A stretch of 32,902 nucleotides of DNA from the NCBI GenBank assembly GCA_004297485.1, contig SCTM01000249.1, positions 1 to 32,902 on the forward strand, written 5' to 3'. Below, one piece after another: positions 2,956 to 29,098 of the stretch. Source of the stretch: Rhodospirillaceae bacterium (GTDB taxonomy: Bacteria; Pseudomonadota; Alphaproteobacteria; Rhodospirillales; Rhodospirillaceae). The notes beneath the pieces were generated by a model. The model saw only the letters and a list, made by a program, of their open reading frames with translations, was not told the DNA's origin and searched no databases. The position numbers were made by a program, and so were the translations under genes. Numbering within the stretch: the stretch's first letter is position 1; every line of letters begins with the position of its first letter.

Positions 2956-4272
2956 ATGAAGATGAATGACATGATGATCGTCAGCGTCGATGATCATATT
3001 TGCGAACCGGCCGACATGTTCGACAAGCATTTGTCGGGCGATGCGCTCGCGGCCGCGCCCAAACTGCGGACGACCGCTGAGGGAACCGACTACTGGGAGT
3101 ACCAGGGCATGAAAATGCCTTCGGTCGGACTCAATGCGGTCGTCGGTCGCGTTCCCGAGGAATACGGCATCGAGCCGACCGCGCTTTCCCAGCTGCGCAA
3201 GGGCTGCTTCAATCCGAAGGAGCGCCTCCGCGATATGGATGTCAACGGCATCGCTGCCTCGCTCAACTTTGGCACTTGCGTGGGATTCGACGGCGGTGTG
3301 TTCCACCGGGCCAAGGACAAGGCGTTGGCCTATACCCACCTGCGTGCCTATAACGATTGGCATATCGATGAGTGGTGCGCTACCGATCCGAGCCGCTTTA
3401 TTCCCTGCGGGTTGCTGCCGACCTGGGACATGGACGCGGCAGTTGCCGAAATCAAGCGTATCGCCAAGAAGGGGTTCACTGCCGTATCTCTGAACGAGAA
3501 CCCGACCAAGCAGGGCTTGCCCAGCATTCACAATGCCTATTGGGAGCCGCTCTGGAAGGCGATCGTCGACAACGACATCGTCATGTGCCTGCACATCGGC
3601 GCCGGCAATCCCGCACCGCATGCCTCGATGGAATCACCGATCGAGGCATGGATCACCACCATGCCCATGTCGATCTCCGTCGGCGCAGCCGACTGGCTCA
3701 ACCTCGCCGCGCTCGAGCGCTATCCGACCATGAAGATCGCGCTGTCGGAAGGCGGGATCGGGTGGATTCCCTATTTCCTGGAACGGGCCAACTTCAGCCA
3801 TTCCCGCCATAAGGCCTGGACCCACTCCGGCTTCAAAGGCACGAAACCGAGTGAAGTCTTCCATAAGCATTTCATGACGTGCTTTATCGACGATGCGTTT
3901 GGGCTGAAGAATCTCGCGGACCTCAATGAGGATCTGGTTGCCTATGAATGCGATTATCCCCATTCCGATACCTTGTGGCCCGAGGTACCGGAAACGCTTT
4001 GGGAAAGCCTCAAGCACCTGACCGATGTCCAGATCGACAAGGTCACCCATCGCAACGCAATGAAGTTCTTCAGGTTCGATCCGCTCGCTCGCTATAGCCG
4101 CGAGGATCTGACGGTGAGGGCGTTGCGGGCGAAGGCGGTCGCGGACAAAGTGGACACGACGCCGCGCTCGTATGGCGGTGCGCGTCCGCTGGCCGAAGGC
4201 GAAAAGCCCCGTGTGGTTACCTCGGGCGACATCTACAAGATGTTCGCGGCACGCGACAATCAGGCGGCATAA
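2956..4272 (+). CDS. metal-dependent amidohydrolase (ACMSD-like, amidohydrolase 2 family)
   Basis: A 438-aa TIM-barrel hydrolase or decarboxylase of the amidohydrolase-2 family. Ligand motifs are visible in order: Asp12-x-His14 (SVDDHICEP), a central His (CLHIGAG), the family's SEGGIGWIPYFLERAN block, and the late Asp/His segment ECDYPHSDTLWP. Family members hydrolyse C-C or C-N bonds or decarboxylate cyclic acids (2-amino-3-carboxymuconate semialdehyde decarboxylase relatives), so a ring-fission or decarboxylation step is plausible. The start is set by a strong ribosome binding site, AAGGAGG at 2944-2950, five bases before ATG 2956; an in-frame TTG at 2941 lies before this site. It ends just before a clear hairpin, marking the end of the P450 operon. 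The substrate is not known. Confidence 0.92.
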   Translation: MKMNDMMIVSVDDHICEPADMFDKHLSGDALAAAPKLRTTAEGTDYWEYQGMKMPSVGLNAVVGRVPEEYGIEPTALSQLRKGCFNPKERLRDMDVNGIAASLNFGTCVGFDGGVFHRAKDKALAYTHLRAYNDWHIDEWCATDPSRFIPCGLLPTWDMDAAVAEIKRIAKKGFTAVSLNENPTKQGLPSIHNAYWEPLWKAIVDNDIVMCLHIGAGNPAPHASMESPIEAWITTMPMSISVGAADWLNLAALERYPTMKIALSEGGIGWIPYFLERANFSHSRHKAWTHSGFKGTKPSEVFHKHFMTCFIDDAFGLKNLADLNEDLVAYECDYPHSDTLWPEVPETLWESLKHLTDVQIDKVTHRNAMKFFRFDPLARYSREDLTVRALRAKAVADKVDTTPRSYGGARPLAEGEKPRVVTSGDIYKMFAARDNQAA

Positions 4273-4283
4273 GACTTCTTGTT

Positions 4284-4309
4284 CACGCGGGAGCGCAAGC
4301 TCCCGCGTG
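4284..4309 (+). terminator. candidate terminator hairpin after the P450-amidohydrolase operon
   Basis: Perfect 11-bp stem (CACGCGGGAGC / GCTCCCGCGTG) closed by a GCAA tetraloop, 12 nt after the amidohydrolase stop. It is followed only by a short mixed pyrimidine run (CCCTTTCC), so intrinsic termination may be partial. Confidence 0.65.
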
Positions 4310-4388
4310 CAGCCCTTTCCGCACTGAAGATCAACAGTGAAAGGCGGACCGGCACAAGACAGCGTCCGGGAAAGGTCCGTGGAAGCTG

Positions 4389-17068: not shown

Positions 17069-17707
17069 CTATGGTCGGGCGTGAATCTCGGCCCTGATCC
17101 GCTTGCCCTCGCCGGTAAACCGCGCCAAAGCCTCGCGGTCGTCCTCGCTGAGGGGAATCTTTTCCAGCGACACCTTCATGGCGTCAATCGCGCGTGGCGT
17201 GCGTAGGACAATGTCCTTCGGTTGGCCGTCGGCCATGAGTTGCGCGCCGATCGGATTCGGCACGAAGCTGATTTTTCGCGTGATGAAACGATATTCCGAC
17301 CAGCCGAGATACCAGAACCAATCGGTATAATAGAGCCAAGAACGCTCGTTGAAGGCGCGAATGTGAGTCGGATCTTGCCACGCGCCGTAGGAAAGATCGT
17401 AGGGCACGAGAATGTTGAACACACCCCCGACACGCAGCAGCTTCAGGCAGTTTGTCATGGTGGCAACGAGGTCCGGCACGTGTTCAAGCACGTCATTGGA
17501 CATGATCTCGTCATAGGTGCCGTGTGCGATCGTCACGTTACCGAAGCGTTGTGTGGGATAGTCGGCCGACCCATGAGGTGGGAAATCACCGCTGACGTCG
17601 GCAACGACGTCGGGCGACCAGTAATCGTTAACGTCAATGTTCAGAAAATCGGCACGAAAATCCTTGCCACTGCCGAGATTGATTTTCAGAGGAGCGGCGA
17701 CGGACAT
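17069..17707 (-). CDS. class I SAM-dependent methyltransferase
   Basis: A 212-aa soluble Rossmann methyltransferase. Motif I is INLGSGKDFRADFLNIDV, with the acidic ribose-binding residue at the end. The second acidic stretch is DEIMSNDVLEHVPD, and the strand-4 block NCLKLLRVGGVFNILVPYD is typical of the methyltransferase_11 / glycosyl-associated group. The middle contains aromatic-rich segments (YYTDWFWYLGWSEYRF) that may form the acceptor pocket. Predicted acceptors in this group include sugars, lipids and small hydroxy compounds; nothing here decides. It converges on the amidohydrolase operon with a 56-nt gap and is separated from the kinase gene upstream by 123 bp. Confidence 0.85.
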   Translation of the reverse strand: MSVAAPLKINLGSGKDFRADFLNIDVNDYWSPDVVADVSGDFPPHGSADYPTQRFGNVTIAHGTYDEIMSNDVLEHVPDLVATMTNCLKLLRVGGVFNILVPYDLSYGAWQDPTHIRAFNERSWLYYTDWFWYLGWSEYRFITRKISFVPNPIGAQLMADGQPKDIVLRTPRAIDAMKVSLEKIPLSEDDREALARFTGEGKRIRAEIHARP

Positions 17708-17830: not shown

Positions 17831-19534
17831 TCAACACTTCATCGCCTCGCAGATCGCTAGTGCAAAATCTCGAAAAGCGATCGGTTTAGTCAGGAGCGCC
17901 GTTATCTTGGCATCCTCCGCGTAACGTCTGGTCTGCGCGTTGACCGCGGTGGCGACACCGATAATGCGTATGTTCATACTCTCCCGCTCCTGGGCAATTT
18001 CGGTAACCCAATCAATCCCCCTCCAGATGGGAAGATTGATGTCAAGGAGAAGAACGTCCGGGCGTTCGATGGCGATTTGCGCCCGCATCTCACTAAGATC
18101 CGTGACGTGAACGACCGCCAGTTCAGGGCGATAGCGCGCATACATATCGATGAGACTGCAACTGCGCGGGTCATCGTCGACATAGAGAATGCGACAGCGC
18201 GGAATATCGACGAACCCGGCATCCGCGTGGCCAGGCACGGCCATGAACTGTTGAGCACGTTGAAGCGTCAGATCGAAGATTGATCCGTATCCTTCGATGC
18301 TCTCGAACGTCAGGTCGGCGCCCATCGCCTGCGCAAGGCGTTTTGACAAGGCCAGGCCGATGCCGGTTCCGTGAATGGTGGACTTGTCCTGGTTGAGTCG
18401 ATTGAAAGGTTGAAAGACCTGCCGACGGAACTGGGCCGGAATACCGACGCCCGTGTCGGCAAATCTCACCACAATGTCTTCGTGAGAAACGACCAGCACA
18501 GTGATGTCGACGCGGCCACGAGGCCGATTGTATTTAATGGCGTTCGAACCGAGATTAACAACAATCTGCAACAGGCGCGTGGGATCGGCCACGACGACCA
18601 CGGATTCACACTCGGATGTGTTGAGCGATAGCGCTACGTTGGCCTTCTGCGCCATCGGTTCAAGGATTGTGGAAGCTTTCTGCAAGCATTCGCAGACATA
18701 GGTTGGCTCAACCTTGATGTTGGAGCGTCCGGATTCGACCATGGACAGATCAAGAAGCCGCTCGATCAAATCGAGAAGCAAGTTTCCGCTGACCTGAATG
18801 TTCTTCAGATATGCGCGTTGCCGCTCGTCCAACCCTTCGGGGTAGACCTGCTCCAGCATTTGGGCAAATCCAAGAATGGAATTAAGAGGCGACCTAAGTT
18901 CGTGGCTCATGCCCGCCAAAAATACGGTCTTGGTATTATTGGCGGCTTCAGCCTCGGATTTTGCTTTAAGAAGCAGTTCTTCCCCATAACGCCGCCGTTC
19001 GACCTCGCGTCGGAGATGGGCATTTGCATCAGTGAGTTCACGGGTCCGTTCCTCGACACGCCGTTCCAGCGAGACCGTCAGCTCATGAAGCTGACGTTCA
19101 GCGGAAGCGCGGTCGGTAATTTCTTTTTGCAGTTGGATATTCTTTGCCTGCAAATCGCCGACACTGGGAATCCGCAGAGCTTTGGGCATAAGCGGCCAAA
19201 GCATCACGGCCGTCGTCATCGATACGACCGCCGTGATCACCTTGATAAGGGCCTGAATGCCGTACACCGGCACCCACAGAGTCAAGATCGAGGTCGCATG
19301 GGTGATACCGCACCACACGATGAATGCGCCGAAGAGATACAAGATCCACACATGTGGAAAATCGCGCCGACGGCATGCAAAACAGACAAGCGCGGCCGGG
19401 ATCGAGAAATAGGCAATGACAATGAGCGAGTCAGCGATAACGTGAGTCCACAGGATATCCGGTCGCCAAAGCAGACACATTCCATGCGGCATAAATCCAT
19501 CTTCGTCGAAAAAGGATTTGATCGAGGCAAACAT
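17831..19534 (-). CDS. hybrid histidine kinase with ethylene-receptor-like membrane domain
   Basis: A 567-aa inner-membrane sensor. Residues 30-115 form three hydrophobic helices closely resembling the plant ETR1 ethylene-binding domain, including IAYFSIPAAL and FGAFIVWCGITH. Asp35, Tyr42, Ile72, Cys75 and His79 line up with ETR1 Asp25, Tyr32, Ile62, Cys65 and His69, all with a constant offset of 10; Cys and His are the copper ligands. A coiled-coil linker (about 125-200) follows, then a HisKA domain with His211 (GMSHELRSPLNSI), an ATPase domain with N and G boxes (NLGSNAIKYN, ADTGVGIP, GTGIGLALSKR), and a receiver with acceptor Asp498 and Lys550. There is no GAF domain, unlike plant receptors. 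ATG 19534 was preferred to a GTG at 19570 because it starts just before the family's FMPHG segment. No response-regulator gene is adjacent. Confidence 0.93.
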   Translation of the reverse strand: MFASIKSFFDEDGFMPHGMCLLWRPDILWTHVIADSLIVIAYFSIPAALVCFACRRRDFPHVWILYLFGAFIVWCGITHATSILTLWVPVYGIQALIKVITAVVSMTTAVMLWPLMPKALRIPSVGDLQAKNIQLQKEITDRASAERQLHELTVSLERRVEERTRELTDANAHLRREVERRRYGEELLLKAKSEAEAANNTKTVFLAGMSHELRSPLNSILGFAQMLEQVYPEGLDERQRAYLKNIQVSGNLLLDLIERLLDLSMVESGRSNIKVEPTYVCECLQKASTILEPMAQKANVALSLNTSECESVVVVADPTRLLQIVVNLGSNAIKYNRPRGRVDITVLVVSHEDIVVRFADTGVGIPAQFRRQVFQPFNRLNQDKSTIHGTGIGLALSKRLAQAMGADLTFESIEGYGSIFDLTLQRAQQFMAVPGHADAGFVDIPRCRILYVDDDPRSCSLIDMYARYRPELAVVHVTDLSEMRAQIAIERPDVLLLDINLPIWRGIDWVTEIAQERESMNIRIIGVATAVNAQTRRYAEDAKITALLTKPIAFRDFALAICEAMKC

Positions 19535-19786: not shown

Positions 19787-20209
19787 TTATGCCCAGGGCG
19801 TGACCGGCGGGACTTGGCAGGGTCCTTCCACGTCGATGGTTCCGAAATCCGCGGGGCCGACGATTTCGAGATATTCCATGTCGGGCGAGTAATCGAACAG
19901 GTAGTGGACGATTCCCGGTTTCTGATGAACACAATCCCCAGCCGTGACAAGGGTCAGTTGGTCCTCATACATGAACTTGGCCCAACCCTTCATCATGATG
20001 ACGATTTGAAAATCGGCGACATGCTTGTGCCAGCCCGTGCCATTCGTGGGCGGCCGATTGGCCTTAACCAAGTGGGCGACGACTTTGCCGTTCGTGGCCG
20101 CTGCTATGCCCAGGTCGCGATAGAGAAAGAAATCTCGAAGGCCTTCTCCGCGATAATTCGTGTCATCGGGTTTGATGTGTGAAAACTGTGTTGCGCCCGC
20201 GTCCGTCAT
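19787..20209 (-). CDS. cupin-domain protein
   Basis: A 140-aa single-domain cupin. Motif 1 reads GTGWHKHVADFQIVIMMKG, with two His but Gln in place of the usual Glu, and motif 2 reads AGDCVHQKPGIVHYLFDY, with a metal His. This is a plausible metal site with an altered ligand. The protein is soluble, with no signal peptide. Such small cupins can be dioxygenases, isomerases or ligand sensors; no choice is possible here. ATG 20209 has a preceding AGGGGA at about 7 nt and was preferred to a GTG at 20251. The neighbours (kinase and patatin) give no pathway clue. Confidence 0.85.
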   Translation of the reverse strand: MTDAGATQFSHIKPDDTNYRGEGLRDFFLYRDLGIAAATNGKVVAHLVKANRPPTNGTGWHKHVADFQIVIMMKGWAKFMYEDQLTLVTAGDCVHQKPGIVHYLFDYSPDMEYLEIVGPADFGTIDVEGPCQVPPVTPWA

Positions 20210-20495
20210 AACAAGTCCCCTTTGTCTCGACCTGATAGACTGCGTGCCCACCTATGTTTCCGCTCCCTCCCCAACTGTTCACAGCGAGCACCAAATCCGC
20301 AACGCCGACGAAGCCTTCCCGTCCCGCCGCACGTGCGGTAAATCCGTGACGCTTGCCCCCTGGATCGTGGACACAAACGCCATGGGATGAAGGTTAACGT
20401 GTTTTATGCTGCGGTGCAATATCGTCGTAATGCGCCCATCTGGGCCGTGTCTTCTGCGGGGCTCTGGCGCCCCATCCGCGTCACGCGCTGTCAAC

Positions 20496-21533
20496 TCAAT
20501 GATACATCTTCATCATGTCGAGCGTTGATTCAACTTCGATGCGGTCGAAATTCTCAGCCAGCCATTTATCGGTCGTGCTCACACCTAATTCGTAGAGGTA
20601 ACGCAGGAATTTCCAGTCGGCGTTGAACTTGGACGAGGCGCCGAGCTGACTCATCTCGTCTTCCGCCACGATGATATGAAAATTGACATGGTGAAACGGC
20701 GTGTCGTGCAATTTGCCCTGATCGATCAATTTTGAAATCGTGGCGATGCCGCTCATTTCGCGCACCAGGGTCGAGTTGAAGCTGACCTCGTTGATGCGGT
20801 TCAAAATCTCGCGCGCGGTGGTCGGTGCTTCCGGACGGTTCATGGGATTGATTTGTACAATCACGACGTCCTTGCTGACGCACTCATGAATCAACGGTGC
20901 AATCGCAGGGTTCGCGAGATAGCCGCCATCCCAATACTGCTCGCCATCGATCTCGACCGCCTTAAACATGAGCGGAAGACATGCCGAGGCGAGCAAGGCA
21001 TCAACGGACATTTCTTCGGTTCGGAACACCTTCAGCTTGCAGGTCCGGACATTGGACGCCGAGACAAACAGCTTGATATCTTTGCGACGGCGCAATCCCT
21101 CGAAATCAACCATCTCGGAAAGAATGTCGCGCAGCGGATTGAGGTTGAGGGGATTGAGTTGAGACGGCGAAAACATGCGCGAGAAAAAGTCCGCCATCAT
21201 GAACGCGGGCGAATTGTCCACGTTCCAGTGCTTATCGCCGCCTGGCATGAACCACGGCATCATTGCCTGCGACGACATGAATGCGCCGTCGCTGACTTTC
21301 TTCCAGAAAACACCGAGGCTGTCGATCGCCCCCTGCCGTCCGCCCTTTATAAAACCGTCCGTGAATACAACACCGTTCATGGCGCCGGCGCTGGTGCCGC
21401 TGATACCGTCGATAAAAATACGCCCGTCACGCATCAAGCGGTCCAGAACGCCCCAGGTGAACGCCCCGTGCGCGCCGCCGCCTTGAAGCGCCAGGTTCAG
21501 GCGCTTGCGTTGGTTTTTTTGGACTTTGGTCAC
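20496..21533 (-). CDS. patatin-like phospholipase
   Basis: A 345-aa lipid acyl hydrolase of the patatin family. The oxyanion-hole loop GGGAHGAFTWG is at residues 18-28, the nucleophile Ser48 is in GTSAG, and the catalytic Asp202 is in YWDGGYLANPA, giving a complete Ser-Asp dyad. There is no signal peptide, so it is probably cytosolic or membrane-associated, as in bacterial patatins linked to lipid-body or PHB turnover. The only nearby start in frame is GTG 21533, without a strong ribosome binding site, so the start is somewhat uncertain. It stands alone, 286 bp upstream of the cupin start, with no hairpin worth calling after its stop. Confidence 0.93.
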   Translation of the reverse strand: MTKVQKNQRKRLNLALQGGGAHGAFTWGVLDRLMRDGRIFIDGISGTSAGAMNGVVFTDGFIKGGRQGAIDSLGVFWKKVSDGAFMSSQAMMPWFMPGGDKHWNVDNSPAFMMADFFSRMFSPSQLNPLNLNPLRDILSEMVDFEGLRRRKDIKLFVSASNVRTCKLKVFRTEEMSVDALLASACLPLMFKAVEIDGEQYWDGGYLANPAIAPLIHECVSKDVVIVQINPMNRPEAPTTAREILNRINEVSFNSTLVREMSGIATISKLIDQGKLHDTPFHHVNFHIIVAEDEMSQLGASSKFNADWKFLRYLYELGVSTTDKWLAENFDRIEVESTLDMMKMYH

Positions 21534-27861: not shown

Positions 27862-27928
27862 TAATACGATTGCGAATGTAAGATAACCGAATTCATCGGT
27901 GTTCAAGTCACTCACAGGCGAGCTTTTC

Positions 27929-29098
27929 ATGCGAAACGGCAACTATCTATTCACCAGCGAGTCCGTGGCCGAAGGGCATCCGGACAAGGTATGCGACCGC
28001 ATTTCCGATACGGTCCTTGATCTCTTCCTGGCGGCTGATCCGCAAGCACGGGTGGCTTGCGAGACTCTGGCGACGACCAATGAGGTTGTCATTGCCGGCG
28101 AGGTGCGCGGCCCGGCATCGGTCACCTTCGAGAAGATTGAACAGGGCGCGCGACAGGCCATACGTGATATCGGCTATGAGCAGGATGGTTTCCACTGGCG
28201 CAGCGCCGACATTCGCATTCGCCTTCACGCTCAATCCCAGGATATCGCCGTGGGTGTCGACGCGGCGGGTAACAAAGACGAGGGCGCTGGCGACCAAGGC
28301 ATCATGTTCGGCTTTGCCTGCCGCGAGACCCCCGCTTTCATGCCGGCGCCGCTTTACTATGCTCACGATATTCTCAAGCGCCTCGCTGACGCGCGCCACA
28401 GCGGCGCGACGAAGAACCTCGGTCCGGACGCCAAGAGCCAAGTCACGCTGCGGTATGTGGACGGCAAGCCGGTGGGCGCCACTTCGGTGGTGGTTTCCAC
28501 GCAGCACGACGCCGACGCAAGTCAGGACGAGATCAAGGAAACCGTCCGCGCTCACGTCAAGAAAGCGCTCCCCGAAGGTTGGATGTGTGAGGAGCAACAG
28601 TTCTACGTGAATCCCACCGGCCGGTTTGTCATCGGCGGTCCTGACGGCGATTGCGGTCTTACCGGCCGTAAAATCATCGTCGATACTTACGGTGGAGCGG
28701 CGCCTCACGGCGGCGGCGCGTTTTCCGGAAAAGACCCCACCAAGGTGGATCGGTCGGCGGCCTATGCCGCGCGCTATCTTGCGAAGAACGTGGTTGCGGC
28801 CGGACTGGCGGATCGCTGCACGATCCAGCTTTCCTACGCCATCGGTGTTGCTCGCCCGTTATCGATTTATGTCGATACCGCTGGCACCGGCCAGGTCGAC
28901 GAAGAGAAACTGGCCCAGGTGCTGGATCAGGTCATGGACCTGACTCCGCGGGGCATTCGTACCCATCTCCAACTCAACCGGCCGATCTATGCGCGCACGG
29001 CGGCCTATGGCCATTTCGGCCGCGCGCCCGAGGCGGACGGCGGATTCTCATGGGAAAAGGTTGACCTTGTCGACGCCCTGCGCTCGGCCTTCGCCTAG
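27929..29098 (+). CDS. metK: S-adenosylmethionine synthetase
   Basis: A 389-aa enzyme making SAM from methionine and ATP. Signature segments in order: [18 protein letters not shown] at the N-terminus, the ATP-binding [10 protein letters not shown], and the phosphate loop [19 protein letters not shown]. Length is normal for alphaproteobacterial MetK. ATG 27929 gives the usual family start; a GTG at 27899 would add ten residues and falls within a small hairpin, so it was not used. It begins the metK-ahcY unit; ahcY follows 69 nt later. Control probably comes from the shared palindrome and the divergent SAH-sensing type regulator. No SAM riboswitch could be recognised in the short leader. Confidence 0.97.

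Follow-up and report, generated by a model that had tools for sequence, protein, structure and literature searches.

The stretch of DNA analysed in this study (32,902 nucleotides from a Rhodospirillaceae bacterium, here called the window) encodes a hybrid histidine kinase, which begins with an ethylene-binding domain (EBD) of the ETR1_N family and keeps all seven ethylene-binding residues of the plant receptor ETR1. We consider it probable (at roughly 0.78) that this protein belongs with AzoEtr1 of Azospirillum brasilense and SynEtr1 of Synechocystis among the bacterial ethylene receptors. We infer the binding of copper and ethylene from the homology to AzoEtr1; as a counterpoint, the site might have been conserved even though its ligand changed. 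The residue set had first been noticed in a sequence-only reading of the same DNA. That observation is confirmed, and the interpretation built on it is, as a whole, partly supported.

Domain layout and ethylene-binding residues

The reading frame that runs from 19534 to 17831 on the minus strand is open throughout and encodes 567 amino acids; its coordinates had been given correctly in the sequence-only reading, which named no strand. An alternative GTG start is located 12 codons upstream of the ATG (giving 579 amino acids). The ATG at position 19534 was taken as the start, since it matches exactly both the residue numbering of that reading and that of AzoEtr1. The following features were distinguished:

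17831-19534, minus strand: whole gene, EBD-HisKA-HATPase_c-REC hybrid histidine kinase of 567 amino acids (Pfam and AlphaFold)
19475-19489, minus strand: P16-H17-G18-x-C20 motif immediately ahead of TM1, almost invariant across aligned bacterial EBDs (short helix 17-21 in the model)
19169-19456, minus strand: ETR1_N, the ethylene-binding domain, residues 27-122 (Pfam; model helices)
19430-19432, minus strand: Asp35 (ETR1 D25; alignment)
19397-19411, minus strand: Tyr42 to Pro46, with Tyr42, Ile45 and Pro46 (ETR1 Y32, I35 and P36; alignment)
19319-19321, minus strand: Ile72 (ETR1 I62; alignment)
19310-19312, minus strand: Cys75, predicted Cu(I) ligand (ETR1 C65, AzoEtr1 C75; alignment)
19298-19300, minus strand: His79, predicted Cu(I) ligand (ETR1 H69, AzoEtr1 H79; alignment)
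19241-19243, minus strand: Lys98 in helix 3 (ETR1 K91; alignment)
18728-18931, minus strand: HisKA dimerisation and phosphoacceptor domain, residues 202-269, with His211 (Pfam and motif)
18257-18586, minus strand: HATPase_c catalytic domain, residues 317-426 (Pfam and motif)
17864-18190, minus strand: fused receiver (Response_reg), residues 449-557 (Pfam), with Asp498 as the putative phosphoacceptor, judging from LLLDINLP

The match to the ETR1_N profile (PF25487; E=1.5e-35, 121.8 bits against a curated cut-off of 27 bits) rules out a chance agreement of residues. D35, Y42, I72, C75 and H79 are at the positions where the sequence-only reading had placed them, and I45 and P46 fill out the published seven (in ETR1: D25, Y32, I35, P36, I62, C65 and H69). 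The single ungapped offset that had been claimed for these residues is +10 and holds from D25 through H69; the Cys and His ligand positions, whose disruption had been named in advance as one of two outcomes that would speak against the idea, are intact in the alignment with ETR1. A deletion of three residues after H69 makes K98 the counterpart of ETR1 K91 (offset +7). The AtETR1 reference sequence shares 41 identities with the EBD in 100 columns (41%); given this number, the hypergeometric probability of all seven residues being identical is 0.0014, or 0.0005 with K91 added. Its numbering agrees with D25, C65, H69 and K91 as given in PMC11819568, where K91 is assigned a role in receptor output.

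The remainder of the protein contains what defines a hybrid histidine kinase (by Pfam and motifs), namely the H box (HELRSP, starting at residue 211), the N and G boxes (NAIKYN at 331, DTGVGI at 360, GTGIGL at 389) and the receiver with its Asp and Lys (VDDD at 452, LLLDINLP at 495, LTKP at 548). Between the EBD and the kinase, neither a GAF nor a PAS domain was detected by Pfam at E<=0.001.

An AlphaFold model of the EBD, built on 54 aligned EBDs, has three long helices (residues 25-55, 62-87 and 91-112) preceded by the short helix 17-21 (mean pLDDT 96.1, pTM 0.82), and the three membrane helices typical of an ethylene-binding domain are thereby predicted. In the full-length model (mean pLDDT 88.7) a single helix, 125-230, joins the EBD to the kinase, with a pTM of 0.51 that leaves the arrangement of the domains unsure. 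A Foldseek comparison of the EBD model with PDB chains gave no match at E<=0.001, and the 60 PDB sequences that match the protein at E<=0.001 all have their best stretches beginning at residue 141 or later, i.e. outside the EBD. Since no solved structure was found for the EBD, a small and confidently modelled bacterial example is of practical value.

Relatives, fused receiver and distribution

The closest experimental precedent is AzoEtr1, whose first 130 residues bind 14C-ethylene when expressed in Pichia. Cells in which AzoEtr1 is disrupted bind little or no ethylene; ethylene, or the disruption of AzoEtr1, also reduces biofilm formation and root colonisation in A. brasilense (PMC11819568). 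The suggestion that such a kinase senses ethylene is therefore open to test, as the sequence-only reading held, but it has already been tested in this relative and is not new. AzoEtr1 has D35, C75, H79 and K98 under numbers identical to those of the window protein, and in both proteins an N-terminal EBD feeds a histidine kinase. AzoEtr1 differs in carrying a PAS domain and in having its response regulator, of 135 amino acids, encoded separately next to it (PMC11819568); the window protein lacks a PAS, and its receiver is fused. The AzoEtr1-type arrangement (EBD-PAS-kinase plus adjacent response regulator) is not seen here, no receiver protein being found among the 27 neighbouring ORFs scanned. 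A plasmid record from another A. brasilense strain contains an ORF of 525 amino acids, the length given for AzoEtr1 in PMC11819568; its EBD is 51% identical to that of the window protein over 124 ungapped residues. SynEtr1 (slr1212 of Synechocystis) is likewise a bacterial EBD histidine kinase and ethylene receptor (PMC11819568); in the sequence comparison, two other cyanobacterial EBDs (L071 and L072) stood in for it.

AtETR1 has in common with the window protein the kinase, the receiver, the seven residues and K91. It differs in having a GAF domain (PMC12643061), which the window protein lacks, and an N-terminal Cys pair (PMC6682694), in place of which the window protein has the PHGxC motif. 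Thus, of the plant-type features, neither the GAF between EBD and kinase nor the Cys pair for a dimer disulfide is present; a single cysteine, C20, precedes TM1.

The receiver is indeed fused to the kinase, as the sequence-only reading had stated, but the further claim, that it is fused as in ETR1, is not borne out by the present evidence if common descent is meant. By Pfam, a receiver is found in 9 of 72 members (some of these loci being cut short) and in 5 of the 64 ORFs complete at both ends, the window protein being included in both counts. The two nearest relatives, L084 (genome G057) and L082 (G045), belong to the same family and are both 66% identical to it overall (77% and 62%, respectively, in the EBD). 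They have the same EBD-HisKA-HATPase order, different gene neighbours and no receiver, which indicates that the receiver was either gained in the lineage of the window protein or lost in these two. The receiver-free nearest relatives, the 9 of 72 members and the missing GAF together argue against descent from an ETR1-like arrangement. The identical EBD-HisKA-HATPase_c-receiver layout was observed in a protein of 573 amino acids from another family of the same class (L048, G394), which is 37% identical overall and has Val at the position of Ile72. The overall identities and the receiver count are based on alignment A1, which comprises 72 of 75 ORFs (without L035, L062 and L067).

Within the family, 9 of 73 genomes contain the profile PF25487; draws from the wider groups gave 30 of 297 genomes for the order, 28 of 385 for the class and 29 of 398 for the phylum (28 above the cut-off). 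These draws overlap and each includes the host genome; one listed match from the order, two from the class and two from the phylum were left out of the fetched sequences. The 14 control genomes gave no PF25487 match in any of the four surveys. According to a review (PMC7700396), many proteobacteria and cyanobacteria have ethylene-binding domains with varied outputs. Matches were also present in 19 plasmid records, including those of Azospirillum, Novosphingobium, Rhodovastum and cyanobacteria, all below 60% identity, and 8 of the 19 were fetched for comparison. One of them, plasmid p2 of Novosphingobium sp. ES2-1, typed as conjugative, carries an EBD kinase gene (EBD at 4001-4372) with an adjoining response regulator and, nearby, a gene annotated as cas9; EBD sensors can thus travel on mobile elements. 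A phage location was considered and rejected, the phage record collection containing no match to PF25487.

All seven residues are kept in 54 of 100 other EBD frames, and C75 together with H79 in 90 of 100 (in an earlier, smaller set, 39 and 68 of 74). The full set is therefore the commonest state in bacteria, and its retention, although complete here as the sequence-only reading had emphasised, does not distinguish the window protein. Four loci (L002-L005) whose matches begin at residue 164, outside the EBD, were dropped, as was L064, which had no ORF match; the very divergent L062 was left out of the 101-row alignment. In two genomes of one genus (L160 and L161), His79 is replaced by Arg, and Tyr42, Ile45 and Pro46 by Phe, Thr and Ala, with H17 and C75 kept.

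The N-terminal PHGxC motif

The PHGxC motif is presumably absent from AtETR1. In aligned bacterial EBDs it is about as conserved as the copper ligands. In alignment A2 (the window protein plus 53 ORFs of at least 140 bits, plasmid records excluded) C20 is invariant in the 53 other rows and H17 is found in 51 of them; the two that lack it are also the only two that lack C75. Among 101 aligned EBD rows, H17 and C75 occur together in 90, neither in 8, C75 alone in 3 (L073, L159 and L162) and H17 alone in none. C20 tracks C75 less closely (both in 90 rows and neither in 5, with 3 rows having just C20 and 3 just C75). In the 93 rows with C75, 24 other columns reach a conservation of at least 85%; that of H17 is the only one of them to be lost in all eight C75-less rows, one of these losses being an alignment gap. 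Two sequences (L014 and L019) have a one-residue shift near positions 17 and 20, and the H17 counts use the realigned rows.

This association, which was found post hoc on inspecting the data, is best regarded as a lead from aligned sequences. Six of the eight C75-less rows are divergent overall, two of them being weak matches (L163 and L164). The EBD tree implies 8 changes at H17 and 5 at C75; as this tree is based on few columns and has many unresolved forks, no claim is made from its deep branches. A tree-aware test gave 4 independent pairs; all of them agree in 190 of 200 pairings and three of them in the remaining 10, and with only 4 pairs (sign test, median p=0.125) significance is out of reach.

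Two otherwise mostly intact EBD kinases in which C75 is replaced by Gly and H17 is lost, L066 (1339-3288, genome G666) and L078 (1142-2581, G589), lie on different branches of the tree and keep D35, Y42, H79 and K98. Copies with the complete residue set are present in both genomes as well (L054 in the former; L041 and L065 in the latter), and the two kinases are candidates for retired or re-purposed paralogues of ethylene sensors. L066 also departs at P16, G18, W23, P89 and P117, and L078 at W23, P123, L128 and I72 (Val).

If the N-terminus faces outward, the predicted helices would put H17 at the outward-facing end of helix 1, with the D35/C75/H79/K98 cluster on the same side. We tentatively suggest, while regarding it as rather doubtful, that bacterial EBDs have an element lacking in plants, in which H17 at the mouth of helix 1 acts with Cys75, either by providing a third ligand for Cu(I) or in the entry or loading of copper. 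If true, this would provide a sequence rule separating working from retired bacterial ethylene sensors; the link between H17 and C75, if real, would bear on how copper is delivered to the site in bacteria. For cyanobacterial receptors, a single N-terminal cysteine with a possible dimer disulfide has been described (PMC6682694). The string "PHG" is absent from the main text of PMC11819568, and no mention of an N-terminal histidine was met in the available portions of the literature, the search of which was not aimed at H17.

Genomic context and proposed function

The kinase gene is flanked by the following genes:

20496-21533, minus strand: patatin (ORF scan; GC 0.547)
19787-20251, minus strand: cupin-like protein (ORF scan; GC 0.557)
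17069-17707, minus strand: methyltransferase-like protein (ORF scan)

The intergenic gaps at the kinase (252 bases upstream, or 216 with the GTG start, and 123 downstream) do not indicate an operon. Further out are acyl-CoA and thiolase genes, an ammonium transporter, an OmpL-like porin, metK, ahcY and a protein of the malic enzyme/phosphate acetyltransferase type. No response regulator or recognised ethylene gene was found among the 27 neighbouring ORFs scanned, and nothing local therefore points to an ethylene response. A conserved operon was also rejected: a tblastn search with the 27 window ORFs (E<=1e-8) revealed no common neighbour in L081, L082, L084 and L085, with one SDR-like match in L084 about 7.5 kb from its EBD kinase. 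Relatives of the patatin (73-79% identical) occur in four genomes of the family, and the surrounding 17-19 kb that were retrieved contain no such kinase.

The host assembly comprises 4.56 Mb in 356 contigs and is 97.76% complete. The only 16S gene found in it (L089, contig C209, 1501-3053) is just 73% identical to that of a member of the same family (L090) and was therefore left unused. It may be planctomycete-like, and its contig is probably mis-binned. For the 16S of L090, the 12 matches listed are all alphaproteobacterial (88.8-89.7%); 32 further records, outside those listed, have best stretches of 90-95%, their length unseen. The assembly also contains two metK genes (27899-29098 of the window and 11-1132 of contig C327) with proteins 73% identical, which reflect either duplication or contamination.

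The patchy occurrence of the domain (9 of the family's 73 genomes and 30 of the order's 297, the host included), the lack of any recognised plant-association gene among the 27 neighbouring ORFs scanned and the failure to find an ACC deaminase in the host genome would suit a protein in which the same fold and copper site serve a signal other than ethylene, such as copper itself, redox state or a different small ligand of copper (CO, NO or another alkene). We consider this unlikely, because the residues kept extend beyond the metal ligands to all seven of the ETR1 ethylene set and because ethylene binding has been shown for the closest protein tested (PMC11819568). The same patchiness, along with a GC content (0.545) below that of every other ORF among the 27 scored in the window, might suggest a decayed or passenger kinase with no present function. 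These may be signs of horizontal acquisition, but the patatin and cupin-like genes are nearly as low in GC and the nearest relatives are in the same family; moreover, the 567-codon frame is open and none of the kinase, receiver and EBD motifs checked is missing, which makes loss of function the least probable of the explanations. The usual seat of a second input in such proteins is a GAF or PAS domain between the EBD and the kinase, and neither was found here. A light or multi-signal sensor with ethylene as one of two inputs is for this reason very improbable, even though SynEtr1 receives both ethylene and light (PMC11819568), the latter as UV-A (PMC6682694).

For the ethylene receptor that we favour, we infer the membrane topology, the signalling steps and the partner protein as follows. 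Cys75 and His79, both in membrane helix 2, would hold Cu(I), with helix 1 contributing Asp35, and ethylene would bind at this site in the outer third of the membrane. Its binding would shift helix 3 (Lys98), and the long predicted helix 125-230, uninterrupted by PAS or GAF domains, would relay the change to the kinase and alter autophosphorylation at His211. The phosphate may then pass from His211 to the fused receiver and onwards to an acceptor that is likely to be an HPt protein encoded elsewhere; the host genome contains seven HPt matches, one of them within a frame of 136 amino acids. In A. brasilense, the biological output of such a pathway concerns biofilm formation and root colonisation.

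If this reading is correct, the window protein would add a compact hybrid ethylene-receptor kinase, free of both PAS and GAF domains, to the known bacterial group. Composed of an EBD, one long predicted helix, and a kinase with its receiver, it may serve as a simple construct for studying how ethylene binding leads to phosphorylation.
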